NCBI GenBank assembly: GCA_947172415.1
Contig: OX359195.1
Coordinates: 7,371,001-7,435,000, forward strand
Reading direction: 5' to 3'
Origin: Chondrosia reniformis
Taxonomy: Eukaryota; Porifera; Demospongiae; Chondrillida; Chondrillidae
Length of the DNA: 64,000 nucleotides
Below, piece after piece: positions 3,001-36,000 of the stretch. Positions within the stretch are counted from its first letter, which is position 1. Every line of letters starts with the position of its first letter. The notes under the pieces are model-generated. The model was not told the origin of the DNA, searched no databases, and was given only the letters and a program-made list of their open reading frames with translations. The translations under genes were made by a program, and so were the position numbers.

Positions 3001-3910
3001 ATTTGGAGTTAAGGAGAACCCTACACCAACCCAACCTGAGGTTTCTGCTGAGACTTCAAAGGAAATCACATCTCCTCTCACCATAATATTGGCTGTATAG
3101 TTACCACTTTCCAGTGAAAGCTCCAGGAAGCAGGAAGCTATAGCTAAAGATGAACAAACAGTAATAAGAGATAGAGATAATACTATTCACTTGAAATTCA
3201 TAACATTTTTTTTCAGAGTGTACTCTCTAATTAGGGGATGGCCAAAAACATGGCTGCCCTATTGAATATTTTTATCAATTACCATTTCGTCAATTAAGAA
3301 AAGTTTGGTTACATTTTGATTATTTGCAGTCATTCATATATGCTTTCTAAATGTAAAACCACGTTTCGATGCTCTACAACGGTCTCAAAATGTCTTACCT
3401 ACGTATATATATAAACATCATTTCTGTACGTGTTTGGATGCACCCTGCCTACTTCAGCTGTCATGGTGTTTTGTTACTATATCTCCATAATGCCCCTATC
3501 TGCATGTGGTGTCTTTATAATTAATTCACAACCAATCAGATATGTACTCCAGAATCTGTTGTGACTTCTCTAGTTTTAGGCAGTAGTGCAGTAGGCTTAT
3601 TAAGCAAGGTTGCAAATACTATTATATAAACTTTAGTCAGTCTTTGAAACTTTCCTATCCTGTCAGCCTCTAGTTAGAGTCAGACACAATTAATGATAAA
3701 ACTAAATACTAGTAAGTCTACAAGATTAGGTGCCTTGTTATCTCTTTATATTCTTCAATTATTAAGTTATATTCTATGACTATATACGTATATATTAATA
3801 CTTCAAATGTACTTACATGTTATACAATTCACTTGACTGAATGCTGTGAAGAAGAGAAATATTACTGAAAGAAATATGAAAGGAGACCTCTTCATCCCAC
3901 TGGTCACCAT
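1..3910 (-). CDS. DOMON–FN3 surface protein, paralogue A (3' part off window)
   Basis: Leftmost of three paralogues; it runs off the window. Exons in transcript order: 3910–3817 (signal peptide, MVTSGMKRSPFIFLS start), 3137–2998, 2914–2856 and 2797–2523 (DOMON), then one FN3 domain per exon at 1614–1348, 1232–948, 885–598 and 406–81. All junctions fit GT–AG and keep phase. DOMON is recognised from the GDVISFEVSAETSGWVGVGF block, the SDVIIGGRL strand and the RMRVTGDTNDL...YLLYAYGG end. The FN3 exons carry the W.....I..Y.VEYR and TTYEVRVRA signatures. DOMON domains in other proteins bind haem or sugars; the ligand here is unknown. Unlike the middle paralogue there is no EGF array, because the signal exon joins DOMON directly. 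By homology GAIN, GPS and TM exons should lie left of base 1. The third FN3 donor reads GTCAAT, weaker than the rest. Confidence 0.85.
3215..3420. mobile_element. Transposon remnant in intron 1 of paralogue A
   Basis: Begins AGAGTGTACTCTCT, then GGGGATGGCC and an ATGGCTGCCCTATT block. The same block follows the palindromic end of the element at 43591 and recurs at 17634–17830 in intron 1 of the middle paralogue. It therefore looks like an old insertion that predates the duplication of the two genes. Only one end is recognisable. Confidence 0.55.
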
Positions 3911-6900
3911 CTTCTGAGCTCTTCTAGACTGTCAGTATATTCAGTTACCTACGTATATATATAATAGGCTGGTAACACTGGAATGCAACAAGAAATTATC
4001 CTGAATATTATTGAGTTACAGTATATACGTACATATAAAGAATATCTAAAACTATGAATTCCAACTACAGCAAATGACTATATAGTTACTTAAATATCTT
4101 AATAAGCAAAAATAATCCCTGGAAAGTATTATGCCAATTTAATAGGACTTCGGTCCCCCAGCCAAGATTAGACTTCAGTCACTTGGTTGGTTGGCATAAG
4201 TGATTATGTTTGCTTATCATCATAGCCTTTGCACGGCTTAGTGCAATTACCTCCCTTTATTCATTAATAACTTGTAGACGTACATAAGTACATATAGGCT
4301 TTATTAAAGACAGTAGGCATATATAACATGTAGGAAAAATGTGTATTAGATTTTTCATATATATACAGTAGATAATAATAATATATATAGGTGATGTTAC
4401 AATGCTGTTAACCATGTGTTTATCTATATCCATCAGTTACCAGTTATATGCCTACATACATATAAAAGTGTAGGGATAAACATGCTGTTATATTAATACT
4501 GGGAAAAGGGCTGGCTGCATGAGACTACATAAAAAGAAAAAGTTACAAATTTACATTGACATTGCATTAAAATTATGTTTATGTATTGGTATACATAAAA
4601 ATGTCATAAAATATATATTTTCATTATTCCTTAGGCAATTTTAATATTTTATTGGACTGTGGCCCAGTTCCTGTGCATGTTGCCTTATATAGATATCAAT
4701 ATAAAATTAACATAACTAGCCATTATGTACAAATTATAAAACTAATCATGAATAATTCTAATCATGCAGACAACTATTATATATTATGTATGTGTTTGAT
4801 ATACATATATACAGTAGGAAGGGTTTGATTAACACATTAATTACTTGAAATGAATACAGAATGATCAGAGTGTATCTATATATACCTTGATGTGTATCAA
4901 GGTTCATGTAAAAGATATATATATCTGTTCATTTTAAGCTTTAATATCTTCTAGTTATGGAGAACATGAGTACTTAATCACTATTGGAATGAAACACTTG
5001 ACCAAGTTTGTATCCATATCGTCCAACATGTCCATTTTGAATAGCTACGTACCACAAAAGGTGCATGATATTTTTAGCTACAATATCTCCTGAGATCCTG
5101 CGTTACAATGTCTACATCCTGAGAATGCAGTTCAAGTTACATAGTGAATGTGAGAAATGGAGGAACAGGATACTTAAAGAATCTAACTGTATATATATAT
5201 GGGACTCTTACACAATATACGTACGTATATACACCCACAATAACATGTCCTCTAAACCACAAATGTATGTATGTATGTAATTATTGTTGTTTACATAATA
5301 TTATATATTGTTCACTCTCATGCTGAGGGCTACCATATTTTATATACTGTATACTGTAAAGAATTTGAAACGATAGCCATATGCATTAATCTGCTAGTTT
5401 TGTCAAATCCCTAAAATACAGTAGTAATACAATACTAAGCTAAGTTTCATTCTTAAGATCCCAATATATATTAAGTTAAGCACATGTACGTGTACAACAT
5501 GTTTGAAAGATTTCAATCCAGAAGTCTTCATCAACAACACGATATATCATTGCTGATGAAGACCTCCATGTAGGTCGAAACATCCATTAAAGTTGCTGAT
5601 GCTGAGTAAATCTTAAACAGTAATTGTAGTAATTTACAGTTTGTCATGCCATATCAAACCATACAACTAATTCATGAACACCCATACTAAGGTAATAGAT
5701 AGCATTATCTACATACATGTAATGAGATACTCTTACGTATATATGAGTGGGATATACTTCCAACACTTGCTATATGTTTACCAAGACACACATACATATA
5801 CCTGATCATCTGTACCCCAATGTTCCAAACCATAGATTGTGTACTTCTTGAGAATCTCAAATCGCTCATGTGAAGATATATCCCAGTGCCTAGTACATCA
5901 TAGGTAGTAGGACAGATAGTACAGTGTCACTGAAAATATATCATTATATATAAATTAATTTCAGTAAAGGTTTGGTCATTATATACACATGTATGCTAGG
6001 GATATTGACTATACAAAGCATTACATGTGTATATATACGTATAAAGTCAATTAAGATCCAAAAATTGATCAAAGCCCCGGCCCCCTATAAGACACAACTT
6101 AGAACCAAACGCTTCACATTATATTGCAAGAGCAATACATACAGTGTAAAACATGCAATGAGAGCCTAACATAGCACTAACTCAAACCATCACATATTAC
6201 TTCAGTACAGAACATTGACACACACATGTACACCTTCAGTATTTATACATTATGTACAGAATATATATATACAGTACAAAATATTTGACATGAGAACTTA
6301 GCCAAAAGAATGTGATAAAATACCAAACACACTAACTGTTAGGTACAAGGGTGCTGGGTTATTTATATTATTTCAGGAGCATGTATGTGAAATATTCCCT
6401 ATTCCCTTATACGTACTTATCTTCCAATCACGAGTCCATCCAGATATTGGTATATATTACTCCTCAAAGGAGAGCACACCACTGTTGCCTAGCAATGGAG
6501 GATAGTGTCATATTTGTATAGTCCCGCAAGTCAAGATTTGGTTCCTTCCCTGCCTGATTAAACTTATATATACCAGAAATTGAGATGCTTCCATGAATGG
6601 CTTTTGTATATATATAATCCTCAACACTTTGCTAAAATCATTTATTAATACAATCAAAGATTGAAAGTCAAATCATTAATCCTTAATTTAATTATACAAT
6701 ATATATGTTTTGATATACAAGAACTGCATAAATTAATAGGATGGCCATTTTATTCTATATATCATTCCTATATATAATTCTCCCGCCTTACTGCCTACAG
6801 TATTCTGTGATAAAATATACACTTCTAGTACTGGCCTTTGCATGGTAGTATAACTGTCCAATAACAATACCAAATGGTTCTCATTATATACACTGAATAA

Positions 6901-7498
6901 AGATGTTAAATGGTCAAATGTACAACAATACTAACTACAGCTATAAAGCTATACTAAACATTAGTCTAGTCGCATTAATAATATGATCTTGACTCTCCTA
7001 CAGATGCCTTAGTTTGATATCCCTGTAATGTTTTCTCTGAAGATAGCTACAGTATAAGCAAAATATAACTACAGTCATGTACATTACTGAATAGCTATCA
7101 TAGTAAAATATAATTCACTGGCATATGTTCCCTGATGTTATTAATGTAAATGGAATATGTCAGAAATAGATTTTCATACTCGGAAATTATGTGAATGTAA
7201 ATATACACATATTACTGTATATATATGTACCAACCCTAGGAAATCCCCCTTTTTAGACATAGATATATAATCATTACTAGTAGCCAACTTATCGCTAAAG
7301 TATATGATAAGCGAGAAGCCTTTAACTTTGATATAGTATTTCCCCATTTAGATATGTAGTAATATTCCTAATACCCCTGCTCTCTCCAGGTTTAGTTCCC
7401 CTATAGGCTTCTTTACAGAATAGGCACAGCATGTAGGAAGAAGGTGTATTAGATTTTCCATGCATATATATATAAGTACATATGCATACTCTGTATAC
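3911..7498. other. Spacer between paralogues A and B
   Basis: No intact gene seen. It is a close copy of 18337–22723 minus the 786-bp insertion there. It holds decayed DUS3L exon copies (5802–6488), a short foldback around 5530–5580 (CTTCATCAACAA paired with TTGCTGATGAAG) and a copy of the dispersed repeat near 7380–7460 (TTTAGTTCCCCTATAGGC). It must include the promoter of paralogue A and the 3' end of paralogue B, but I could not place either. Confidence 0.6.
5802..6488 (-). pseudogene. DUS3L exon fragments, copy 1
   Basis: Three pieces match consecutive exons of the intact DUS3L gene at 31083–31995. At 5802–5889 is an almost unchanged 88-nt exon ([10 protein letters not shown]...[11 protein letters not shown]). 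Near 6047–6090 is a decayed version of the [14 protein letters not shown] exon with internal losses. At 6422–6488 is the [17 protein letters not shown] exon with about 15 nt deleted and its donor changed from GGTAA to GATAA. Without upstream exons and with a broken splice site this cannot make DUS3L. It is best read as baggage carried by the segmental duplication that multiplied the receptor genes. Confidence 0.8.
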
Positions 7499-10400
7499 TC
7501 ACATCAACATCACAATGGCAATTGGAATAATGATGAGGAATACAACTATTCCAACCACCAAAAGTACAATCAATAGAACTGGTACAAAGTCCTCAGGAGG
7601 CACATCAACCTACATGTATTGAGTAATTAAATAAAAAATGGAACTTTTACATTAACATTCAATATTGCAATATAATTTACGTATATAGTGTATTACTGTA
7701 GCATACATATAATATATACTGTACACCGTATGTAAAGTGTATGAAGCAATACCTCCTGCAATGCAAACATGGTAAGATGACTGCACTGGCAAGTGACTGA
7801 ATTACCAGTTCTGGTGGATTCACAACCATCTTGGGACCAAGCTATACATGTAATTATAATATGTTATGTCATATTTGAACAATGTCATCAGTAGCTCTAT
7901 TTATTAACTGTTATTTGAGCATCAACAACAATAATTCCATTAAAAGGAATACACATTTCTACCCAGGAGTAATAATTTTTTTGAGGCTGATTAATGTTCA
8001 ACTAATTCAATATATATAGTGTCACCCACTTAATAGGCCACAATTCATTTTGGAAAATTTGGCCTATTATCTGTTTTGGCCTAATATTGAATTCATACAT
8101 GTACGTATGTGTGTGTGCGAGAATGTAGCAAATATACTCTTTATCATTTCACACTGTTTTAGAACAATGAAATTATCAATTAGAGCTTACAGCTTGCATC
8201 AGTATCATAGAATACACAGACAATTGCTCTACCAGCCACCTCTTGTTGAGATCCTTCTGGTATCTGTAAATTTACATATAAGTGGTATATATAGATACAT
8301 ACGTACGTGCTATAAGCATATACACATTGCACACACACATACTGATTATGTATAATGTATATATATGTATACATGAGAAACATGCACACACTACATATAC
8401 ATACTGTATAGTGTGTACCTGGAATATCACTGTTATTCTATCATCTCCTTCTAGTCCAGAGACAGGAAAGTTTACATCTATCAGGGTTGCACTACTCAAG
8501 ATATTGCTGTTAGGTGTCAGGGTATTGATAGCTGATTGGGATAGTTGGATGACAACTACTGAAACTGTTGGAGGAGCATTTTGAAATACTCCACTTGGCA
8601 ATGTTACATCTCCAGACATTGATGTGTATTCACTGGTTTGGGCATCATTATTTGCTAAACATCCAACTTCAGTAACTATATTGGAACCACTTGTTTGAGA
8701 AGCAATACAACTTCTAGCTGACACTTCTATCAAATTCTCAAGTATCATTATCACTTCACTGGAAAGAATAAATAAACAAGTTCTTGAATGCATAAGTAAT
8801 TAAAATCTAGTAAAAAAGCTACCTTGTGGAATTATTCAGCAGACTTGCTGGAGATGATAATAGACTGTCTATGACAACTACAACCAAAGTCTATAGAGAT
8901 ACATGGACACAATGAGAAAATGAGGGCATATCCTTTTAACTATAACTTTATAGGTATCTGAACGCATTTTGGATGTGCTTAATACATATATGTACATATG
9001 TATACCACAATACTAAGTATTGTATTAGATAGTACATGTAGGATTTCCTTGTATATATATACGTACATGTACATAGTAATCAAAATTTTATTGTGTATAT
9101 ACATACAGTACTCACCACATTAGAGCCTGTATTAACAACAAAATCTGTTAGAGTTGAGATGACTTCAGACACTCCCTCTGGAGTACTTGGGGGAGGGGCA
9201 TCTTGAATTGCCATCAGACGGTCATCAGAGTTGACAGCCTAAAGAGTATTATGTACATTATATATATACGTACACACAGTATATAGAACAATTCAACCAA
9301 TTTATATACATATTACATAGGTGGGTGCATATACTACGTAGATATACAATTATAAATAAATAATCACCATTTTTCTTACATGCTACATACGTCTACTTAG
9401 AGTAAAGACCTATAAGGAACTAAATCTAGTGAGAGATTATATTATACATACATATGACTAATGCATACGTATGTACTATACAGTATATACGTAAAGTTAC
9501 TGTAATTGTTTAACTAACGGGATTGCAGAGAATCACTAAATCAATCTCAGTCACACAAAATGTGATTTCTGATACCACGTCACTGAAACTTCCAAATCCA
9601 ACATCTGATCTAGCTCTCACTCTCACTTCATATGTGGTATTTAACATGAGACCAGTTAGTGTAGTAGATGTAACATTGGAGTTGGGTGACTGGGACATCC
9701 ACACTTCCATGCCCATCTCTCTATATTCAACGTCATAAGACAATATTGATCTTTCACTGGATGGCATGTCCCAGGTGACATCAAGAGAGGGGGGTTGTCC
9801 ATTGGTTAAACTCCTTGCTAAACTTACATTGACTACCTGATCAGGAACTATACAAATACATGTAAAACATTATAACTGAATTTAAAACATACATTATAGG
9901 ATAATGTTTCACATCTTTGCAAATAAAGAGCTATTGATGCAGTTTCATTAAAACCTAGCAATCTCAAGTTTAACAAAATATTGCAATTGGACAATACAAA
10001 TCTTACAGTATACACACACAATAGTATAACTTACCATTAAAAGTTGTTTCATTGACTGTATCACTCCAGTTTCCATTTCCAACATCAGACACAGCTCTCA
10101 CTCTCACCTCATATGTGGTATTTACCATGAGACCAGTTAGTGTAGTAGATGTAGTAATTGGGTTGGGTGACTGGGACATCCACACTTCCATGCCCATCTC
10201 TCTATATTCAACGTCATAAGACAATATTGATCTTTCACTGGATGGCACGTCCCAGGTGACATCAAGAGAGGGGGGTTGTCCATTGGTTAAACTCCTTGCT
10301 AAACTTACATTGACTACCTGATCAGGAACTATACAAATACATGTAAAACATTATATAACTGAATTTAAAACATACATTATAGGATAATGTTTCACATCTT

Positions 10401-13400
10401 TGTAAATAAAGAGCTATTGATGCGGTTTCGTTAAAACCTAGCAATCTCAAGTTTAACAAAATATTGCAATTGGACAATACAAATCTTACAGTATACACAC
10501 ACAATAGTATAACTTACCATTAAAAGTTGTTTCATTGACTGTATCACTCCAGTTTCCATTTCCAACATCAGACACAGCTCTCACTCTCACCTCATATGTG
10601 GTATTTACCATGAGACCAGTTAGTGTAGTAGATGTAGTAATTGGGTTGGGTGACTGGGACATCCACCCTTCCATGCCCATCTCTCTATATTCAACGTCAT
10701 AAGACAATATTGATCTTTCACTGGATGGCACGTCCCAGGTGACATCAAGAGAGGGGGGTTGTCCATTGGTTAAACTCCTTGCTAAACTTACATTGACTAC
10801 CTGATCAGGAACTATACAAATACATGTAAAACATTATATAACTGAATTTAAAACATACATTATAGGATAATGTTTCACATCTTTGCAAATAAAGAGCTAT
10901 TGATGCGGTTTCATTAAAACCTAGCAATCTCAAGTTTAACAAAATATTGCAATTGGACAATACAAATCTTACAGTATATACACAAAATAGTATAACTGAC
11001 CATCAAAAGTTGTTTCATTGACTGTATCACTCCAGTTTCCATTTCCAACATCAGACACAGCTCTCACTCTCACTTCATAGGTAGTTGCCGGCATGAGACC
11101 AGTTAGTGTAGTGTATGTAGCATTTGAGTTGAGTGACTGGCCTGGCCAGTCCATACCCATCTCTATATATTCAACTTCATAATACAATATTGGTCTATCA
11201 CTGGATGGCTCATCCCAGCTGACATCAAGAGAAGGTTGACCATTTGAAGCATTTCTGACTAAAGTCACATTTTCAACCATTCCAGGGACTACAAATATAG
11301 GTGAAAATTAAAATGTGATCATTGTTTAATAAGCAGTTTTATGCTACGCTAATAAAAATTACAAAATTCTTTTAAATTATAATTATGGCTAATTTAGCAT
11401 CAAGTAAGGTTAACAAAACAGAATAGCCTATTTATTGCTTAGAGAACTTTGAGGACACAATTTCACACCAACTTTTCCTCCCTCTACCATAGGGTCGTAC
11501 AAGTATTCAGATTGAACTGACCATCACAAGTTGTTTTACTGACTGTATCACTCCATGCTCCATTCCCAACATCAGACACAGCTCTCACTCTCACTTCATA
11601 GGTAGTTGCCGGCTTAAGACCAGTTAGTGTAGTATATGTAGCAGTTGTGTTGGGTGACTGCATGGTCCAGTCGTCCATGCCAATCTCTCTATATTCAACT
11701 TGATAATACAATATTGCTCTATCACTGGATGGCTCATTCCAACTGACATCAAGAGACGGTTGACCATTTGTGGCACTTTTGACTAAAATCACATTTTCAA
11801 CCATTCCTGGGACTACAATAACATATACAAATAATTAAATTGTCCTACACTAATCATAATATAATTGCTATGCTGCACCAGGATTTAAGTGATTGACAAA
11901 ATCTTTAATTTCTTACTATACACTTAAGTCACATATACTGTAATATGTAAGTATACACATGAGGTGAGGCTAATGTATATATAAGCTGTATACATTATGG
12001 TTGATGTGTTATTTAAGCTATATATCTATATACATCAATTTTTCCAACTATTATTTATTATTTAACTAGCAGCTGTAATCTGTAGATCTGTCCTTGTTAT
12101 TGCTGATGAAAACCCACAAAATGTCCAAAACTTTGTTGCAGATATACATAGGCTAATCGACTAGATCAGTTATGCATAGATATGTATTATTATTATTTAT
12201 TTGTACTGACCATTATAAGTGGTGCCAGTTACTATGTCACTCCATTCTCCATTTCCGATAACATTTACACCTCTCACTCTCACTTCATAAGTGGTTCCTG
12301 CCTCAAGACCTTTCAGTGTAATGTTAGTGTTAACTGTTGCTAGGTTGTTCCATTCTTCAGTTCCATTGATTCTGTATTGTATCTCATAACTTGCTGCATA
12401 CTGTATATCACTCCATTCAACAAGGAGAGCAAAAGATTCATCAATCACACTCCTCTCCAGACTGACATTGCTAACTTTATCTGGAACTGTAGTAATGAGA
12501 TCAAGTGTGTCCTCCTTAGTATACATGTACATACATACGTACATATGTGTATAAACATACAAATTTATGCGTCTGTACCTAATCATATACTGTATGTACA
12601 TATAAATAAATAGACATAAATAGACATATATAAAAATGAAAAACTTAACATCAAAGGGATAGTATGTGTATTAAACATTAGTTGTAATTACAAACATACT
12701 TGCTGGACATGTGTCACCACTAGATAGAGTTATTGTCTCATTACTAAACAGTCCTTGCACACCATGTCTTGAGATTGACACTGGATCTATGCTCATGATC
12801 ATACCACCATAAGCATAGAGGACGTAAACTGCTTGATCTAAGTCAAGATCTTTAGCATCACTGCTAACTCTCATTCTGTAAAATGTGACAACTGTTCTGC
12901 TCTCCATAACAGAAACACTGGCATTAAAGATGTCTTGTTGGCTGTCAATTGGTGGCTGACTTCGAGATGAAGCATATCTGAGGAAAAGAGGTACCTTAAC
13001 CATCTAGACGTCATGTACCTCTTCATATCAGTCGACTTACGCATCAGTTACAAACATGTCCTCTCCTAATCTACCACCAATGATGACATCTGAGTTGGGC
13101 TGCATGTTACACATTTAAGAAAGTGGAAGTGCTAAAGCTACAATTACAAAGCATATATCACATCTATATTCTGTGGTCTTACCATATTCGGAGTTAATGA
13201 GAACCCTACACCAACCCAACCTGAGGTATCTGCTGAGACTTCAAAGGAAATCACATCTCCTCTCACCCATATATTGGCTGTATAGTCACCACCAGCAAGT
13301 GAGTACTCAAGGTGACATAGATCTACTACAATATTAAATAATAGTGGTTACGGTATCATTGATCATCATTTTTAAAATACATATACACTGTATAGGTAGC

Positions 13401-16400
13401 TTTACAGTAAGTGCCAATTATGCAATACACTAAAGGCATTGCATAATAGGAAGTAAACATGCTTATATATACGTATGTACATACGTACAGTACATGAGAG
13501 TCAACTTACCATCCTTCTTTAACTACACATATACATACATACATACGTATGCTTTGTGTATATACATACTGTATGTAATAAAATATTTTCACAAATATAA
13601 CTCTTATTAAAACATAATATTCCTACTAACTTACTTTCACACATATCTCCACTGTAGATACTAGGACAGTCACAAGTACATGATTCATTTTCCAATGTTC
13701 CTCCATTCATACAATCTAGAATGCAGGCTGAATGAACAATAATGCACTTTAGTTAAGACAACATGAATAAAATACTCTATTTTATTAACTTACTCTCACA
13801 CATATCTCCACTGTAGATACTAGGACAGTCACAAGTACATGATTCATTATCCAATGTTCCTCCATTCATACATTCTAGAATGCAGTCTGAATGAACAATA
13901 ATGCACTTTAGTTAAGACAACTTGAATAAAATACTCCATTTTATTAACTTACTCTCACACATATCTCCACTGTAGATACTAGGACAGTCACAAGTACATG
14001 ATTCATTATTCAACATTCCTCCATTCATACATTCTAGAATGCAGCCTGAATGAACAATAATGTACTTTAGTTAAGACAACTTGAATAAAATACTCTATTT
14101 TATTAACTTACTCTCACACACCTCCCCACTGTAGATACTAGGACAGTCACAAGTACATGATTCATTATTCAATGTTCCTCCATTCATACATTCTAGAATG
14201 CAGTCTGAATGAACAATAATGTACTTTAGTTAAGACAACTTGAATAAAATACACCATTTTATTAACTTACTCTCACACACCTCCCCACTATAGATACTAG
14301 GACAGTCACAAGTACATGATTCATTTTCCAATGTTCCTCCATTCATACATTCTAGAATGCAGTCTGAATGAACAATAATGTACTTTAGTTAAGACAACTT
14401 GAATAAAATACTCTATTTTATTAACTTACTCTCACACACCTCCCCACTGTAGATACTAGGACAGTCACAAGTACATGATTCATTATTCAATGTTCCTCCA
14501 TTCATACATTCTAGAATGCAGTCTGAATGAACAATAATGTACTTTAGTTAAGACAACTTGAATAAAATACTCTATTTTATTAACTTACTCTCACACATGT
14601 CCCCACTATAGATACTAGGACAGTCACAAGTACATGATTCATTATTCAACATTCCTCCATTCATACATTCTAGAATGCAGCCTGAATGAACAATAATGTA
14701 CTTTAGTTAAGACAACTTGAATAAAATACTCTATTTTATTAACTTACTCTCACACATATCTCCACTGTAGATACTAGGACAGTCACAAGTACATGATTCA
14801 TTATTCAATGTTCCTCCATTCATACATTCTAGAATGCAGCCTGAATGAACAATAATGTACTTTAGTTAAGACAACTTGAATAAAATACTCTATTTTATTA
14901 ACTTACTCTCACACATATCTCCACTGTAGATACTAGGACAGTCACAAGTACATGATTCATTATTCAATGTTCCTCCATTCATACATTCTAGAATGCAGCC
15001 TGAATGAACAATAATGTACTTTAGTTAAGACAACTTGAATAAAATACTCTATTTTATTAACTTACTCTCACACATATCTCCACTGTAGATACTAGGACAG
15101 TCACAAGTACATGATTCATTATTCAACGTTCCTCCATTCATACAATCTAGAATGCAGGCTGAATGAACAACAATGTACTTTAGTTAAGACAACTTGAATA
15201 AAATACTCCATTTTATTAACTTACTCTCACACATGTCCCCACTATAGATACTAGGACAGTCACAAGTACATGATTCATTATTCAACATTCCTCCATTCAT
15301 ACATTCTAGAATGCAGCCTGAATGAACAATAATGTACTTTAGTTAAGACAACTTGAATAAAATACACCATTTTATTAACTTACTCTCACACACCTCCCCA
15401 CTATAGATACTAGGACAGTCACAAGTACATGATTCATTATTCAATGTTCCTCCATTCATACATTCTAGAATGCAGCCTGAATGAACAATAATGTACTTTA
15501 GTTAAGACAACTTGAATAAAATACACCATTTTATTAACTTACTCTCACACACCTCCCCACTGTAGATACTAGGACAGTCACAAGTACATGATTCATTATT
15601 CAATGTTCCTCCATTCATACATTCTAGAATGCAGTCTGAATGAACAATAATGCACTTTAGTTAAGACAACTTGAATAAAATACTCCATTTTATTAACTTA
15701 CTCTCACACACCTCCCCACTATAGATACTAGGACAGTCACAAGTACATGATTCATTATTCAACATTCCTCCATTCATACATTCTAGAATGCAGCCTGAAT
15801 GAACAATAATGTACTTTAGTTAAGACAACTTGAATAAAATACTCTATTTTATTAACTTACTCTCACACATATCTCCACTGTAGATACTAGGACAGTCACA
15901 AGTACATGATTCATTATTCAATGTTCCTCCATTCATACATTCTAGAATGCAGTCTGAATGAACAATAATGTACTTTAGTTAAGACAACTTGAATAAAATA
16001 CTCCATTTTATTAACTTACTCTCACACATGTCCCCACTATAGATACTAGGACAGTCACAAGTACATGCTTCATTATTCAACATTCCTCCATTCATACATT
16101 CTAGAATGCAGCCTGAATGAACAATAATGTACTTTAGTTAAGACAACTTGAATAAAATACTCTATTTTATTAACTTACTCTCACACATATCTCCACTGTA
16201 GATACTAGGACAGTCACAAGTACATGATTCATTATTCAATGTTCCTCCATTCATACATTCTAGAATGCAGCCTGAATGAACAATAATGTACTTTAGTTAA
16301 GACAACATGAATAAAATACTCTATTTTATTAACTTACTCTCACATATATCTCCACTGTAGATACTAGGACAGTCACAAGTACATGATTCATTATTCAACG

Positions 16401-18336
16401 TTCCTCCATTCATACAATCTAGAATGCAGGCTGAATGAACAACAATGTACTTTAGTTAAGACAACTTGAATAAAATACTCCATTTTATTAACTTACTCTC
16501 ACACATGTCCCCACTATAGATACTAGGACAGTCACAAGTACATGATTCATTATTCAACATTCCTCCATTCATACATTCTAGAATGCAGCCTGAATGAACA
16601 ATAATGTACTTTAGTTAAGACAACTTGAATAAAATACACCATTTTATTAACTTACTCTCACACACCTCCCCACTATAGATACTAGGACAGTCACAAGTAC
16701 ATGATTCATTATTCAATGTTCCTCCATTTATACATTCTAGAATGCAGCCTGAATGAACAATAATGTACTTTAGTTAAGACAATTTGAATAAAATACACCA
16801 TTTTATTAACTTACTCTCACACACCTCCCCACTGTAGATACTAGGACAGTCACAAGTACATGATTCATTATTCAATGTTCCTCCATTCATACATTCTAGA
16901 ATGCAGTCTGAATGAACAATAATGCACTTTAGTTAAGACAACTTGAATAAAATACTCCATTTTATTAACTTACTCTCACACACCTCCCCACTATAGATAC
17001 TAGGACAGTCACAAGTACATGATTCATTATTCAATGTTCCTCCATTCATACATTCTAGAATGCAGCCTGAATGAACAATAATGTACTTTAGTTAAGACAA
17101 CTTGAATAAAATACTCCATTTTATTAACTTACTCTCACACATATCTCCACTGTAGATACTAGGACAGTCACAAGTACATGATTCATTATTCAATGTTCCT
17201 CCATTCATACATTCTAGAATGCAGCCTGAATGAACAATAATGTACTTTAGTTAAGACAACTTGAATAAAATACTCCATTTTATTAACTTACTCTCACACA
17301 TGTCCCCACTATAGATACTAGGACAGTCACAAGTACATGATTCATTATTCAACATTCCTCCATTCATACATTCTAGAATGCAGCCTGAATAAACAATAAT
17401 GTACTTTAGTTAAGACAACTTGAATAAAATACTCTATTTTATTAACTTACTCTCACACATATCTCCACTGTAGATACTAGGACAGTCACAAGTACATGAT
17501 TCATTATTCAACGTTCCTCCATTCATACAATCTAGAATACAGGCTGAATGAACAATAATGTACTTTAGTTAAGACAACTTGAATAAAATACTCCATTTTA
17601 TTAACTTACTATAGTGTTTGCCATTTATTTTTCAGAGTGTACTCTCTAAGTAGGGGATGACCAAAAACATGGCTGCCCTGTTTAATATTTTTATCAATTA
17701 CCATTTCGTCAATTAAGAAAAATTTGGTTCCATTTTGATTATTCGCAGTCATTCATATATGCTTTCTAAATGTAAAACCACGTTTTGATGCTCTACAACA
17801 GTCTCAAAGTGGCTTACCCATATACATGTATATAAACATCATTTCTGTATGTGTTCGGATGCACCATGCCTACTTCAGCTGACATGGTGTTTTGTTACTA
17901 TATCTCCATAATGCCTCAATCTGCATGTGGTGTCTTTATAATTAATTCACAACCAATCAGATATATATATATATATACTCCAGAATCTGTTGTGACCTCT
18001 CTAGTTTTAGGCAGTAGTTTAGTAGGCTTATTAAGTAAGGTTGCAAATACTACAAACTTTAGTCAGTCTTTGAAACTTTCCTGTATATCCTGTCAGCCTC
18101 TAGCTAGAGTCAGACACAATTAATGATAAAACTAAATACTAGTACGTCTACAAGATTAGGTGCCTTGTTATCTCTTTATATTCTACAATTATTAAGTTAT
18201 ATTCTACATATATATTAATACTTCAAATGTACTTACATGTATCAGTTATACAATTCACTTGACTGAATGCTGTGAAGAAGAGAATTATTACTGAAAGAAA
18301 TATGAAAGGAGACCTCTTTATCCCACTGGTCTCCAT
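7499..18336 (-). CDS. EGF-array–DOMON–FN3–GAIN/GPS single-pass receptor, paralogue B
   Basis: Complete model, about 1826 aa. Signal peptide exon 18336–18237 (METSGIKRSPF...AFSQVNC). Then 25 EGF-like exons 17543–13635 (residues ~34–808); DOMON exons 13325–13183, 13099–13041 and 12977–12700 (~809–968); six FN3 exons 12486–12211, 11812–11522, 11288–11001, 10811–10518, 10328–10035 and 9847–9519; GAIN exons 9238–9116, 8890–8823, 8758–8419 and 8263–8191 (~1560–1760); GPS exon 7841–7753; TM exon 7609–7499. The GPS has VCVFYDTDASSWSQDGC and CQCSHLTMF, so cleavage between HL and T is expected from the family rule. After the TM (VPVLLIVLLVVGIVVFLII...) a TGA follows within about ten residues. That TGA overlaps a consensus GTGAGT donor, so an unseen tail exon remains possible. 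Exon sums divide by three. The family is known for adhesion; the specific role is unknown. Confidence 0.85.
10035..10811 (-). repeat. Tandem-duplicated FN3 exons in paralogue B
   Basis: FN3 exons 10811–10518 and 10328–10035, together with their introns, are nearly identical at a 483-bp spacing; for example EGW versus EVW is one of the few coding differences. Matching introns show a recent exon-plus-intron duplication. Both FN3 exons are phase 1–1, so the copy number can change without breaking frame. Confidence 0.85.
13635..17543 (-). repeat. 25-copy EGF-like exon array, 159-bp period
   Basis: Twenty-five 93-nt exons separated by 66-nt introns, one per 159 bp (3816 bp between the first and last exon starts is exactly 24 periods). 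Each encodes about 31 aa with six cysteines: CILEC, then MNGGT, then CTCDCPSIYSGDMCE. Spacing is C-x3-C-x10-C-x-C-x-C-x8-C, an EGF-like module in which the usual third cysteine sits late. Exons are phase 1–1, so copies can be gained or lost in frame. Introns are as conserved as exons, which points to very recent amplification or conversion. Most variation is in three short sites (ACATATCTCC, ACATGTCCCC or ACACCTCCCC; CAATGTT, CAACATT or CAACGTT; GCAGCC, GCAGTC or GCAGGC). Units 15065–16336 and 16337–17608 form an eight-exon higher-order duplication. Copy number in the real genome may differ if the assembly collapsed or expanded it. Confidence 0.93.
17634..17830. mobile_element. Transposon remnant in intron 1 of paralogue B
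   Basis: Paralogous to 3215–3420: AGAGTGTACTCTCT then GGGGATGACC and ATGGCTGCCCTG. It sits in the same place relative to the signal-peptide exon, so it was present before the gene duplication. Confidence 0.55.
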
Positions 18337-18530
18337 CTTCTGAGCTCTTCTAGACTGTCAGTATATTCAGCTACCTACGTATATATATAATAGGCTGGTA
18401 ACACTGGAATGCAACAAGAAATTATCCTGAATATTATTGAGTTACAGTATATACGTACATATAAAGAATATCTAAAACTATGAATTCCAACTACAGCAAA
18501 TGACTATATAGTTACTTAAATATCTTAATA

Positions 18531-19316
18531 GAGAACAATAAAAATTTTCTACAAAAATAGTGAAGATGTAGGGATGGCACAAAAAGCATAGAAACAAGAA
18601 AGGGATGTTACACAGTGAAGCATTAGCTATATATGCACGAATCATACAACACCCTTGCTTGTAGGATTCATGCATAGCTAATGCTTCACTGTGTAACATC
18701 CCTTTCTTGTTTCTATGCTTTTTGTGCCATCCCTACATCTTCACTATTTTTGTAGAAAATTTTTATTGTTCTCTAGTTTCTGTACTTTTTATGGAGCATA
18801 AGCTAGGAATTCGTTGTATTTTAAACCACTTTGGTTTTGCAATCTTCGACTGATTATGACGTCATTAAAATGGCGAATTTATTGAGGTCTTGACTCTTGA
18901 GCCATGAAAACTGTCATACTCAATAATAGCGTTATCGCTCTCGCTTCTACAAAAGAATACAGCTCGGAAAATTTAGAGTAATTTCGATTAAGAAGTAGTC
19001 CGAAGGCTTATTTCGTTTTTTAGTTACAGCGGGCGAAGAAGATGAAGAAGATGAAGAAGAAGATGAAGAAGATGAAGAAGAAGATGAAGAAGAAGAAAAC
19101 GAAAATGGGAGATTTCAAAGTTCGTTCGTTTGCCAATGATACACGGTCGCTTGCCTTCAAGGCCAATTTATAGCATGTTTGTTCTATATTCAACTCTACA
19201 TAGTCTCGTTTTGGCGATTTTCAGCCTAATTCGGAATTTCGCTCCTATACCAATGTATGGGGAAAACGAAACAACCCGTACCATCCCTACATAGAGAGTA
19301 CTACCGTACTCTCTGA
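18531..19316. mobile_element. Composite hairpin-ended element with preserved empty site
   Basis: Inserted at TA: the flanks read CTTAATA and TAAGCAAAAAT, while the paralogous site near 4100 reads CTTAATAAGCAAAAAT with nothing between. The left part is a foldback whose arms, 18531–18630 and 18674–18773, look perfectly complementary over about 100 nt with a loop of about 43 nt. Then come about 540 bp of unique sequence with a (GAAGAT/GAA)n tract at about 19036–19100. The right end is the near-palindrome AGAGAGTACTACCGTACTCT. No coding sequence was seen, so it is non-autonomous. The same layout, reversed, occurs at 43591–44745. Confidence 0.85.
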
Positions 19317-21058
19317 TAAGCAAAAATAATCCCTGGAAAGTATTATGCCAATTTAATAGGACTTCGGTCCCCCAGCCAAGATTAGACTTCAGTCACTTGG
19401 TTGGTTGGCATAAGTGATTATTTTTGCTTATCATCATAACCTTTGCACGGCTTAGTGCAATTACCTCCCTTTATTCATTAATAACTTGTATACGTACATA
19501 AGTACATATAGGCTTTTTAAAGAGTAGGCATAATATAGCATGTAGGAAAAATGTGTATTAGATTTTTCATATATATACAGTAGAATATATAGGTGATGTT
19601 ACAATGCTGTTAACCATGTGTTTATCTATATCCATCAGTTACCAGTTATATGCTTACATACATATAAAAGTGTAGGGATAAACATGCTGTTATATTAATA
19701 CTGGGAAAAGGGCTGGCTGCATGAGACTACATAAAAAGAAAAAGTTACAAATTTACATTGACATTGCATTAAAATTATGTTTATGTATTGGTATACATAA
19801 AAATGTCATAAAATATATATTTTCATTATTCCTTAGGCAATTTTAATATTTTATTGGACTGTGGCCCAGTTCCTGTGCATGTTGCCTTATACGTATAGTG
19901 TACAGTAGATATCAATATAAAATTAACATAATGCATTATTACTAGCCATTATGTACAAATTATAAAACTAATCATGAATAATTCTAATAATGCAGACAAC
20001 TATTATTCATGTGTTTGATATACATATATACAGTAGGAAGGGAATGATTAACACATTAATTACTTGAAATGAATACAGATCAGAGTGTATCTATATATAC
20101 CTTGATGTGTATCCAAGGTTCATGTAAAGGATATATATACCTGTTCATTTCAAGCTTTAATATCTTCCAGTTATGGAGAACATGAGTACTTAATCACTAT
20201 TGGAATGAAACACTTGACCAAGTTTGTATCCATCGTCCAACATGTCCATTTTGAATAGCTACGTACCACAAAAGGTGCATGATATTTTTAGCTACAATAT
20301 CTCCTGAGATCCTGCGTTACAATGTCTACATCCTGAGAATGCAGTTCAAGTTACATAGTGAATGTGAGAAATGGAGGAACAGGATACTTAAAGAATCTAA
20401 CTGTATATATGGGACTCTTCCACAATATACGTACATATATACACCCACAATCACTCCATATATATTGTCACAAAATCTTTATGACAACATTTTAACATGT
20501 CCTCTAAACCACAAATGTATGTATGTATGTAATTATTGTTGTTTACATAATATTATATATTGTTCACTCTCATGCTGAGGGCTACCATATTTTATATACT
20601 GTATACTGTAAAGAATTTGAAACGATAGCCATATGCATTAAAAGAGAAATCTGCTAGTTTTGTCAAATCCCTAAAATACAGTAGTAATACAATAAGCTAA
20701 GTTTCATTCTTAAGATCCCAATATATATTAAGTTAAGCACATGCACGTGTACAACATGTTTGAAAGGTTTCAATCCAGAAGTCTTCATCAACAACATGAT
20801 ATATCATTGCTGATGAAGACCTCAATGCAGGTCGAAACATCCATTAAAGTTGCTGATGCTGAGTAAATTTTAAACAGTAATTGTAGTAATTTACAGTTTG
20901 TCATGTCATATCAAACCATACAACTAATTCATGAACACCCATACTAAGGTAATAGTTAGCATTATCTACATACATGTAATGAGATACTCTTACGTATATA
21001 TGAGTGGGATATGCTTCCAACACTAGCTATATGTTTGCCAAGACACACATACATATAC

Positions 21059-28700: not shown

Positions 28701-29566
28701 AGAATCATGCTGCAGCATGCTTCTTAGCAATTAATGAATGAGGTAAAGATCGAAGGATACAACCAGCTGAAATAGAAAACAGGTGGCATGAAAAGGGTTA
28801 TGAATTATAATTTTATTGTCTTCTGTTCTCTGAAAAAAGGTAAAATGAAATCATCATCTTCCGAAATTTGTGAAGATGATGGTTTCCATGTTTCTGGAAA
28901 ACAAAGGTATATTGTGTCACATATGGTTGGCTTGAGTTTAACTGCTCTAATGGCAAGTTCCTTGAATCATATACTGTAAAGATTATATATACTACTGGTG
29001 ACCCGGGCCCATAGCTGCTCCTTCAGTTTGTTCATGACAAGTATATACATGTAGTTGGAAAAAGGTGTCTTGAAGTTGTTCTTTTAACAAATGACCATGA
29101 TATATCCTCCTTAAGTCACTTGGCGATAATCTATTCACTGTATAGGGCCGGCCCATTCGAAGTGTTGAGATTATATCCTAAATTGACAACTTCTATATAG
29201 TGACCAATACTGCAAAATCTAAGCTACAATGTCTTGTGATATCTTGTGCTATTAGAATGTCTGCATCTTGAGAATGCAGTATTAGTTAACTATGAAGAAT
29301 GTTATGCATAATTGGAGGACCATGATATTTTCTAAGAATCTTACTATATAGGAATACTATTTAGAAGAAAGTTACAAGTGCATGATTCATGATAAAATTG
29401 TAACAAGAAAATCTTTATCTGATAAACTAGGCTTTGTGCTTGGCAATGCTTATACATTTGTTAAATACTTACGTCCACCACAATTCACTTGACTGAATGC
29501 TGTGAAGAAGAGAATTATTATTGAAAGAAATATGAAAGGAGACCTCTTTATCCCACTGGTCTCCAT
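22724..29566 (-). CDS. DOMON–FN3–GAIN/GPS single-pass receptor, paralogue C
   Basis: Complete 16-exon model, 1040 aa, all in frame. Signal peptide exon 29566–29473 (METSGIKRSPF start); DOMON exons 28546–28404, 28317–28259 and 28201–27933 (residues ~32–188); six FN3 exons 27550–27275, 27171–26884, 26655–26368, 26139–25852, 25623–25336 and 25108–24780 (~189–774); GAIN exons 24495–24373, 24147–24080, 24015–23679 and 23508–23436 (~775–974); GPS exon 23077–22989 (CQCSHLT motif); TM exon 22834–22724 with TGA almost directly after the helix. No EGF array, but the signal/DOMON junction has CTC and nearby cysteines. FN3 exons 2–4 are near-identical tandem copies. NxS/NxT sites are frequent, as expected for an extracellular stalk. 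Autoproteolysis at HL/T is inferred from the GPS family. Ligand and signalling partner are unknown. Confidence 0.87.
25852..27171 (-). repeat. Tandem FN3 exon units, ~516-bp period, paralogue C
   Basis: FN3 exons starting at 26139, 26655 and 27171 repeat at 516-bp spacing. Exons and the introns after 26139 and 26655 are nearly identical, including an AATTAAAATGTGATCGTTGC block. The 25623 exon shares the same upstream intron. Recent unequal exchange or conversion is the simplest reading. All exons are phase 1–1, so domain number can change freely. Confidence 0.85.
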
Positions 29567-33000: not shown

Positions 33001-36000
33001 ATACAAAAAATTGAATTTGCTATCTAATGGAGTGTCCCAGTGTTTCCGAGGAGAGAGGGTTACAAGATTAGAGCCATTCACTAAAATGTGCTTTTGACTT
33101 CTTCAAAACCAATTAGTTGACAAATATAAACATTTTACCCATTCTCTAGTAGCTAGACACTCAAAAGATTAACATCTGATGTAATGCGTCTAAGGATGGG
33201 TTTGGAACAGTCAGGAGAAGTACATGCATTTACTCACACTAGTCATTCCCTTCACAATCTCCTCTAGTCTCTTTGACCTCCTCATCAGGGCAGAACCAGC
33301 TCCCTAAACAAGATAATCGGTTGACATCTTTACTACTCTCCCAGTAAAGATGTTACATAGCAGAAGTCAATGAGACATAATTCTAATGGTAATGTATGAT
33401 ACGTACTTGCCAATTATGGTTTGGGGTTTGACATATATGCCAGTTGCAACTAAAGATTTACAGCTAGCCTTGTAGCTGTATAGTATATAGTTTATCTACT
33501 AAGGGAATTTGTCACAACCAGATTTTTGAACTATAGACTGAGATATCTTCAGACTGAGTAGGTTAGAGTACTCATCCGGCTTCTAGCAGAGTACATCGTG
33601 TCAATTCCTGCTACGTTATTGCTCGAAAGATCGTACTGTCTAATATTTATTACATAGTAACGAGCCCCTACGATGTTATTCAAGTCCTCTATTGGTATTC
33701 CTTTGGATACGAAGCGCTACCTCATTAATAACAATTGAAGGTCGAATATGTAATAACATATGTATGCCCTTAGCCTGATGTAGTGGGGGATTGCATTATA
33801 AAACTGATGAGAGTTTACCGTGATTCTAATACATATCTACGTAGTACTCTGTAGAACTTGTCAACAAGAATCTAGTACTCTGTAGAACTTGTCAACAAGA
33901 ATCTAGTACTCTGTAGAACTTGTCAACAAGAATCTAGTACTCTGTAGAACTTGTCAACAAGAATCTAGTACTCTGTAGAACTTGTCAACAAGAATCTAGT
34001 ACTCTGTAGAACTTGTCAACAAGAATCTAGTACTCTGTAGAACTTGTCAACAAGGATCTAGTACTCTGTAGAACTTGTCAACAAGGATCTAGTACTCTGT
34101 AGAACTTGTCAACAAGGATCTAGTACTCTGTAGAACTTGTCAACAAGAATCTAGTACTCTGTAGAACTTGTCAACAAGAATCTAGTACTCTGTAGAACTT
34201 GTCAACAAGAATCTAGTACTCTGTAGAACTTGTCAACAAGAATCTAGTACTCTGTAGAACTTGTCAACAAGGATCTAGTACTCTGTAGAACTTGTCAACA
34301 AGGATCTAGTACTCTGTAGAACTTGTCAACAAGGATCTAGTACTCTGTAGAACTTGTCAACAAGAATCTAGTACTCTGTAGAACTTGTCAACAAGAATCT
34401 AGTACTCTGTAGAACTTGTCAACAAGAATCTAGTACTCTGTAGAACTTGTCAACAAGAATCTAGTACTCTGTAGAACTTGTCAACAAGGATCTAGTACTC
34501 TGTAGAACTTGTCAACAAGAATCTAGTACTCTGTAGAACTTGTCAACAAGGATCTAGTACTCTGTAGAACTTGTCAACAAGGATCTAGTACTCTGTAGAA
34601 CTTGTCAACAAGGATCTAGTACTCTGTAGAACTTGTCAACAAGGATCTAGTACTCTGTAGAACTTGTCAACAAGGATCTAGTACTCTGTAGAACTTGTCA
34701 ACAAGGATCTAGTACTCTATAGAACTGGTTAATCTGGATGCTGTGGGAGAAAAGGAGAAATCCCCATTGACCGGCTGTCCCACAGAAACTGTAGACACCC
34801 TTCATTGCATGCAGACTTGTAACATTAATGTTTACATAAAGTATTCTCTTTGATGAACGGTTCATAAGTGTTCAAGATGATGAAGACATTTTTTTGACTC
34901 AACTTACAGATTGAAAGACCATATCAATGGGACATCCACAATTAATGTCAATAAAGTCGACTTCAGTATGTCCACATAGCATCTCAGCACATTTGGTCAT
35001 TGTGTCCGGGAAGGAGCCACAAATCTACAAGAACAAGTGTATGATATAAATAGGAAGCAACTATTGCATACATACATACAAAGGTATACCTGTATTCCAC
35101 ATATATACATATATAGGTATACGTACGTATGTACAGTGGACCCTCACTTATCCGGACCTCGAGTATCCGGCCGCTCGGATTATCCGGCCTTAAATTCCGT
35201 TTCTAATTAACATCCATCATTTAATAGCGTGTACGAGTTTACGACAATGGCTAGCTTTAGCGATGTCTCCTTGAAAAGGAAGCATAGTTGTGATACTTTA
35301 AAGACCAAACTAACTTATTTGAACTAACCACTCGACGAAATCAACTGAAATATTACTCGTTCCTCGCTTGAAAATCTTGATCGAGGCGGCATTTCTTTTG
35401 CTTCACATATCCGGTCGTTTCAGTTATCTGGACATAGTCCGGTCCCGTTGGGTCCGGATAAGGGAGAGTTCACTGTACCCGTATTCCACATACATATACA
35501 GGTATACATATGTACCTGTATTCCGAACACATCTTCACTGGCATGTCTCTTGGCAAGGGCCCACTCAGACTGCTGACCTTGCAATAGGTTGGTACACATT
35601 GCCATCTCTCCGCAAGTAATGTCAGCTCCAAGCTCCTTACATATCCTTCGAAATGGTAGATTGCCCACCTGTATACATACATAAGTACATAGATGCATAC
35701 ACTACATTATATACATATATATAGATACTGTTAAGGGTGAGATACTAGCTTATCTGTACATACGTATGTACAACTTGACCAAAAGTGTAACGTGACTAAC
35801 TGTGGTCAATGGAGCCAAGTACAACTTGTTTTTAAAATCAACCTTCTTCCTAATTGGTTCTGGAGTAATTGGGAAGGAGGTACTTTCTTGTAGGGATCCA
35901 CCAGAAGTGGGCGTGGCAGGAGTCAGCATGTCTGGTTGATGCACACCCTCTAGTATAGTCCCTGTCTCTCTCAAAGGCTGGCTGTTCAGCCTAACAGCAG

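Follow-up and report, generated by a model that had tools for sequence, protein, structure and literature searches.

How does a gene come to carry 25 almost identical exons in a row, and what could such a row be for? The question is raised by a gene on the minus strand of a 64,000-nucleotide stretch of the genome of the sponge Chondrosia reniformis (assembly GCA_947172415.1, contig OX359195.1, here C7:7371001-7435000; the whole stretch is called the window, and positions without a contig prefix are counted from its first letter). The exons are epidermal growth factor (EGF)-like and form one tandem array. We consider it likely that the array encodes a glycosylated EGF-like spacer stalk, which would be resized in frame by unequal exchange and would have been moved between receptor genes by ectopic exchange.

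The EGF-like exon array

All 25 EGF-like exons of the array were 93 nt long and all 24 introns between them 66 nt (first exon, 17543-17451; last, 13727-13635), giving 24 exact periods of 159 bp and no spacing other than multiples of 159 bp. Tandem Repeats Finder (TRF) delimited the array at 13627-17610 as 25.1 copies of 159 bp with 96% matches (score, 7184). The donor GTAAGT followed 25 of 25 array exons, the acceptor TTCAG preceded all 24 internal ones, and in the spliced model every array exon was entered and left in phase 1. No stop codon was present in any of the 25, and each encoded six cysteines. Mean pairwise divergence within the array was 5.1% for exons and 2.5% for introns. An earlier note, made from the sequence alone, had described 25 near-identical phase 1-1 exons at an exact 159-bp period with exon and intron both conserved, and this description was borne out on each point. 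Mean divergence within each of the four large arrays that share this exon type (25, 34, 46, and 57 copies; see below) was 3.2 to 5.1% for exons and 2.2 to 8.4% for introns; homogenisation within arrays affects exons as well as introns.

The order of the units carried a further signal. Units eight positions apart in the window array differed at a mean of 3.19 nt versus 6.14 nt overall, and in 0 of 2000 shuffles of unit order was any lag as low; the 57-copy array showed the same kind of signal at lag 14 (0 of 2000 shuffles). Such order is the trace expected from block duplication by unequal exchange. With its tandem, near-identical, in-frame units of exon plus intron, the window array resembles a coding repeat of the LPA KIV-2 kind.

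Constraint on the module

Each array exon encodes a module of 31 residues, C-x3-C-x10-C-x-C-x-C-x8-C plus a two-residue linker. Across the four large arrays the six cysteines were kept in 162 of 162 exons and stop codons were found in none (0/162), and 160 of the 162 carried an N-glycosylation sequon (24/25 in the window array; 34/34, 45/46, and 57/57 in the others). Most units of the 34-copy array carried an extra NGT sequon. None of 67 variable exon sites fell on positions 1 and 2 of a cysteine codon, against 8.6 expected by even placement (P ~1e-4; the sites come from related arrays and hence are not fully independent). The ratio of nonsynonymous to synonymous change (dN/dS), calculated by a simple count method with the first base of the junction codon set to A, was 0.37 within the window array, 0.39 within an 8-copy set, and 0.54 within the 34-copy set, and ranged from 0.18 to 0.73 between sets; a 3-copy set had no synonymous differences and hence yielded no ratio. 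Positive selection on the units was rejected on these values.

The consensus sequences of the 25- and 34-copy arrays differed at 11 positions, 7 of them inside a 13-nt patch that belongs to the last loop (as much clustering arose in 42 of 20000 random placements), and the role of this loop may differ between the two loci. The introns of the same two arrays differed by 5.8% and their synonymous sites by 29%, a mismatch due partly to the clustered exon patch.

A neutral repeat ratchet, in which the array gains and loses units to no effect and is retained only because it stays in frame, is possible if doubtful. The array exons are no more conserved than the introns, as such a ratchet would have it, and the authors of a study on ADGRE1 suggest that EGF sequence is unconstrained beyond structure (PMC6174849; here and below, cited papers are used for the portions available to us). 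However, 162 exons with no stop, no lost cysteine, and a near-universal sequon, together with a gene model that is open over its whole 1841 amino acids (aa), argue against an array without consequence.

It is unlikely that the array serves as an isoform cassette from which copies are chosen singly, in the manner of Dscam, or skipped in groups to give many splice forms. Phase 1-1 exons could be skipped freely without loss of frame, and EGF exons of mammalian ADGRE1 do show exon skipping (PMC6174849). Yet the 25 modules of the window array amounted to 11 protein variants that were very alike, so little would be gained by choosing among them; skipping in groups may nonetheless occur. Nor did the consensus array intron fold better than shuffled sequences (z = -0.79; 0.09 for the intron of a second array). 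Intron structure as a selector of splicing found no support in this test, which covered local folds of the two consensus introns.

A single-pass receptor model for the window gene

The gene was spliced by hand from genomic DNA, with the signal peptide and transmembrane (TM) helix assigned by eye and the GAIN domain by position. The resulting model predicts 1841 aa, open throughout, in the order signal peptide, 25 EGF-like modules, DOMON, six FN3 domains, a presumed GAIN domain, GPS, one TM helix, and a short tail. Its exons comprise 1 for the signal peptide, 25 for EGF-like modules, 3 for DOMON, 6 for FN3, 3 at the GAIN position, 2 for GPS, and 1 for the TM helix, followed by the tail (Table 1). 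All model introns are bounded by GT-AG; two donors near the end are weak (GTAGCT and GTATTG).

The window gene has the GPS of adhesion G protein-coupled receptors (GPCRs) (PF01825, 9.3e-11). A Pfam scan of the model, whose C-terminal part comprises a single TM exon and a short tail, found no 7tm_2 domain; on this model, the gene does not code for an adhesion GPCR. Both local paralogues have exons closely similar to those for the TM helix and the tail (99% identity for TM, 83 to 85% for the tail and 3' region), which supports the single-pass ending. The product is most likely a single-pass receptor with a GPS motif, as predicted from the spliced model.

The exon type elsewhere in the genome

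One window unit used as a DNA query gave 79 matches in the genome, 25 of them in the window. The module as a protein query gave at least 150 (150 of 228 candidates were scored), and a unit of an array on chromosome 5 (C5), as DNA, gave 127, including a small set on C8 near 1090000. Phase 1-1 exons with six cysteines were then scanned for in the window, C7:7951001-8021000, C5:720001-750000, and C5:1058001-1098000. On both strands of the window there were 25, all in the one array. A run of 34 exons was found at C7:7982170-7987509 (spacing, 159 only), one of 46 on C7 from 8001038 (spacing, 161 to 162), and one of 57 on C5 from 725967 (spacing, 160 to 161); further runs on C7 had 14, 12, 5, 2, and 1 exons, and C5:1058001-1098000 held none. 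The window gene is one of a family of array-bearing receptor genes and not the sole case. The statement that only the middle one of the local paralogues has the array is correct within the window scan; elsewhere in the genome there are three more large arrays (34, 46, and 57 copies) as well as smaller sets.

Six open frames that follow the 34-copy array gave Pfam matches to two pieces of 7tm_2 (5.1e-10 and 1.5e-6), GPS (6.6e-12), and Ig; a DOMON exon was slightly below the cut-off (28.8 of 32.7 bits), and one frame had no match. From their order, these exons probably form one adhesion GPCR gene. Four other open frames were scanned, of which those near the 57-copy array matched EGF_CA and HRM, and the two near the 46-copy array had no Pfam match. 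Sequence upstream of the 34-copy array was 91 to 92% identical over ~700 nt to that upstream of the 46-copy array.

DOMON units are themselves repeated at C5:1073181-1085516 (13 units at intervals of ~1,005 bp, which share 93% identity on average over all pairs and 59% in the least similar pair), and four DOMON matches ~1,050 bp apart lie at C13:6759384-6762778.

Mosaic structure of the window gene

By their signal-peptide exons, three local paralogues lie in the window, and the array is present only in the middle one, the window gene. The gene was compared segment by segment, by the best local match of each segment, with local paralogues 1 and 3 and with C7:7951001-8021000, part of the cluster ~0.6 Mb away that holds the 34-copy (distant) gene. 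The two ends proved to be local. The signal-peptide exon was 97% identical to that of paralogue 3 and 99% to that of paralogue 1, and intron 1 was 90% identical to that of paralogue 3; neither had a match in C7:7951001-8021000. Likewise, the exons from GAINa to TM were 95 to 100% identical to those of the local paralogues and had no match in the distant region.

Between these ends, the relation was reversed. The last DOMON exon (DOMONc) was 97% identical to that of the distant gene (96% as protein), the intron after it 96%, the first FN3 exon (FN3-1) 99%, and the next intron 90%. Against the local paralogues, DOMONc and FN3-1 reached 68 to 76% over parts of the exons, and the introns gave nothing or 36-nt pieces. 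In a collinear alignment with the distant gene, identity was 93 to 100% per 100 nt from 13360 to 12161, with 80 to 91% in the intron adjoining the array; it was 87% at 12160-12061, followed by 95 and 97%. The right edge of this block is sharp, with identity to the distant gene dropping to 72% past 11861; at the left edge, homology to paralogue 3 stops at ~17622 and an array-type intron starts at 17609. The window gene is a mosaic whose ends are local and whose array-DOMON-FN3-1 block is like the distant 34-copy gene. As in a chimera of the EMR2 kind, the EGF block resembles one paralogue and the membrane part another. The earlier view that the array arose, or was kept, after the local duplications found no support in so simple a form: the block recurs in a gene ~0.6 Mb from here, while the rest of the window gene is of local type.

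The left block edge at 17609 coincides exactly with a donor site, and the array-type intron there lacks its exon. A 225-nt intron (8891-9115), outside the block, matched its counterpart in paralogue 3 at 100% identity and the one in paralogue 1 at 99%, above most neighbouring introns, which may reflect recent conversion or constraint. Stretches of 300 nt upstream of two paralogues (4383-4682 and 19585-19884) were 100% identical. A fourth match to the signal-peptide exon (87%) lies at C8:1767335-1767418.

Proposed origin and role of the array

In the explanation that we favour, the array would encode the outer stalk of a single-pass GPS receptor, ahead of its DOMON and FN3 domains, built of 25 modules, each 31 residues long and almost every one with an N-glycosylation sequon. 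Where units misalign, unequal crossing-over or gene conversion would add or remove whole modules, and the frame would survive gain or loss because the modules are 31-codon phase 1-1 exons and exon and intron are repeated together. Resizing of this sort accords with the 159-bp multiples, the higher-order repeat, and the different copy numbers at related loci. The proposal in the earlier note that the array is of a kind able to change length in frame is upheld by the arrays of 34, 46, and 57 copies elsewhere and by the 8-unit higher-order repeat, and variation of array length between individuals is plausible. Ectopic recombination or gene conversion would have carried the array, DOMON, and the first FN3 exon as one block between two clusters, the local one of single-pass receptors and one of adhesion GPCRs ~0.6 Mb away. 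We infer a transfer from the distant cluster to the window gene, a direction favoured by the several arrays of the same exon type in the distant cluster. The array would then determine how far the receptor reaches or how it behaves mechanically, rather than supply a diversified binding surface, against which the near-identical units and the dN/dS of 0.37 argue; a glycosylated spacer is the most likely role.

Several observations weigh against this explanation. The order of units in the 34- and 46-copy arrays was weakly structured (123 and 88 of 2000 shuffles as low). With 8 of the 25 window units, the Pfam profile EGF_TEN scored 32.9 bits, below its cut-off of 65, and the 14 matches in the PDB at E values up to 1 were all weak (best, 0.011); the molecules behind them are EGF-bearing. 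The module is accordingly named EGF-like only, having the six cysteines and not the profile score. Values of dN/dS of up to 0.73 between arrays suggest that some loci may be diverging in function. Intron 1 had no match in paralogue 1, and its agreement with one of two local paralogues lowers confidence slightly. DOMONa and DOMONb were 94 to 100% alike across all loci compared, FN3-2 was 87 to 90% identical to all three compared loci, and the array-adjoining intron was 81% identical to that of the distant gene, none of which points to a single clean event. Finally, the explanation was drawn from one genome assembly and from DNA only.

A wider version has quite a small chance of being right. It would have a dispersed set of adhesion GPCRs and single-pass GPS receptors share interchangeable EGF stalks of 25 to 57 near-identical exons, homogenised by exchange both inside a locus and from locus to locus, with stalk length polymorphic among individuals and haplotypes as a heritable difference in cell contact and possibly part of self/non-self discrimination.

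The earlier note had gone further and expected a hypervariable recognition molecule. Such a self/non-self molecule, with stalk length as an allelic tag, appears improbable. Copy number does differ strongly among related loci (25, 34, 46, and 57), and glycosylation sites differ between arrays, as in the NGT sequon added to most 34-copy units. Unlike diversified recognition surfaces, however, the units are homogenised and constrained: their near identity, the absence of any lost cysteine, and the low dN/dS fit a constrained spacer. Among the matches listed in a search of open-literature titles and abstract beginnings, no sponge allorecognition system combining EGF, polymorphism, and adhesion GPCRs was found.

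Assembly basis of the array

The assembly, odChoReni1.1, was produced by running hifiasm on 0.80 million HiFi reads totalling 10.31 Gb (depth, ~70x; quality value [QV], 69.8) and comprises 14 chromosomes and a mitochondrial sequence in 117.37 Mb (PMC12181767). As searched, it had 117,379,552 bases in 15 contigs, C7 having 8,459,200. From the published totals, the mean HiFi read is ~12.9 kb, about three times the array length. Tandem repeats with nearly identical units are notoriously prone to misassembly, but that the assembler inflated a few true EGF exons is extremely improbable, since an inflated array of ~4 kb is not expected from HiFi reads of this mean length, depth, and quality, and 20 of 24 exon-plus-intron units in the array are distinct and offer unique anchors. 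The check by long reads that the earlier note had proposed came out largely in favour of the array, as judged from the HiFi basis of the assembly.

Comparison with known systems

The glycosylated, resizable stalk proposed here has its nearest counterparts in two mammalian systems. The EGF-TM7 receptors (ADGRE1/EMR1, EMR2, and CD97) likewise have single-exon, in-frame EGF modules of variable number, in adhesion-class GPCRs; in ADGRE1 the number varies between species from 7 to probably 14 (PMC6174849). EMR2 combines an EGF region almost the same as that of CD97 with a seven-transmembrane (7TM) part like that of EMR3, a chimera maintained by gene conversion (PMC2077338). The sponge array differs in having 25 near-identical copies (up to 57 elsewhere) and introns of equal length, whereas the EGF domains of ADGRE1 differ among themselves and are described as calcium binding (PMC6174849). 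The window gene also has one TM helix instead of seven and adds DOMON and FN3. LPA KIV-2 is a polymorphic coding repeat (PMC7613587, PMC11462820, PMC6314250), with 1 to 40 units per allele (PMC11462820) and exons 98 to 100% alike (PMC7613587). It shares with the sponge array an in-frame coding repeat of exons and introns with variable copy number, but its unit is ~5.6 kb with two exons and encodes another domain, while the sponge unit is 159 bp with one exon and occurs in several genes of one genome; moreover, LPA varies between people, whereas the sponge differences are known between loci of one assembly. By analogy, the genetics of the window gene resemble those of the EMR2/CD97 chimera and LPA KIV-2, of which it looks like an extreme variant.

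Other likenesses were more distant. Draper-like EGF-array proteins of mollusc and starfish (P0013 and P0121; modules compared by eye) have modules that end in C-x-C-x-C-x8-C and are 41 and 44% identical to the array, but these modules vary more in spacing and sequence, and the precomputed Pfam annotation gives EGF_TEN only, with no DOMON, FN3, or GPS. In the sponge Amphimedon queenslandica, adhesion GPCRs include EGF, fn3, Ig, GPS, and HRM domains, as do the distant array genes, and the available portion of that report makes no mention of near-identical EGF exon arrays (PMC4302439). Searching with the window model containing 3 of the 25 EGF units gave 159 proteins, the best 120 of which were dominated by FN3 proteins, mostly bacterial where named. 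The DOMON region of a shorter piece found no homologue (candidates of ~370 to 1170 aa), and the EGF part found seven proteins, none with a sponge name and one nameless. Near-identical EGF exon arrays in sponges were absent from open-literature titles and abstract beginnings among the matches listed.

An early-branching animal would here have a receptor family with a repeat-array stalk whose length is changeable in frame, and a stalk block apparently swapped between 7TM and single-pass receptors. Features of the EMR2/CD97 chimera and of LPA KIV-2 length polymorphism come together in one case, and stalk-length variation between sponge individuals, with a role in contact or graft compatibility, is made directly testable.

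Features of the window

Table 1. Features located in the window, with the basis of each assignment
Feature	Position	Strand	Basis
Array of 25 EGF-like exons, each 93 nt, with 24 introns of 66 nt (period, 159)	13635..17543	-	Repeat finder, splice/frame check, spliced model
Complete array-type 66-nt intron upstream of first EGF exon, starting at GTAAGT; left edge of array block	17544..17609	-	Homology to paralogue 3 ends at ~17622
Block common to window gene and distant 34-EGF gene: array, DOMON, FN3-1, and their introns	11861..17609	-	Segment identity, collinear alignment
Signal-peptide exon, common to two local paralogues and C8 copy	18237..18336	-	By eye
DOMON, three exons (13325-13183, 13099-13041, 12977-12700)	12700..13325	-	PF03351, 3.1e-22
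Six FN3 exons (12486-12211, 11812-11522, 11288-11001, 10811-10518, 10328-10035, 9847-9519)	9519..12486	-	PF00041, six stretches
Presumed GAIN region and GPS motif, five exons	7753..9238	-	PF01825, 9.3e-11; GAIN from position only
Single transmembrane exon, hydrophobic stretch	7503..7609	-	By eye
Last coding exon: short cytoplasmic tail and stop	6998..7046	-	Spliced model
Local paralogue 3, signal-peptide exon; EGF array absent; gene leaves window at left	3819..3910	-	
Local paralogue 1, signal-peptide exon; EGF array absent	29480..29566	-	

Just upstream of the signal-peptide exon of the window gene lies an inverted repeat (18529-18775) with 107-nt arms that are 98% complementary and 33 nt apart. 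TRF also identified a 31-bp minisatellite at 33842-34726 (28.5 copies, 99% matches) and a tandem repeat of 18/45/63 bp at 52017-52448 (~25 short units).

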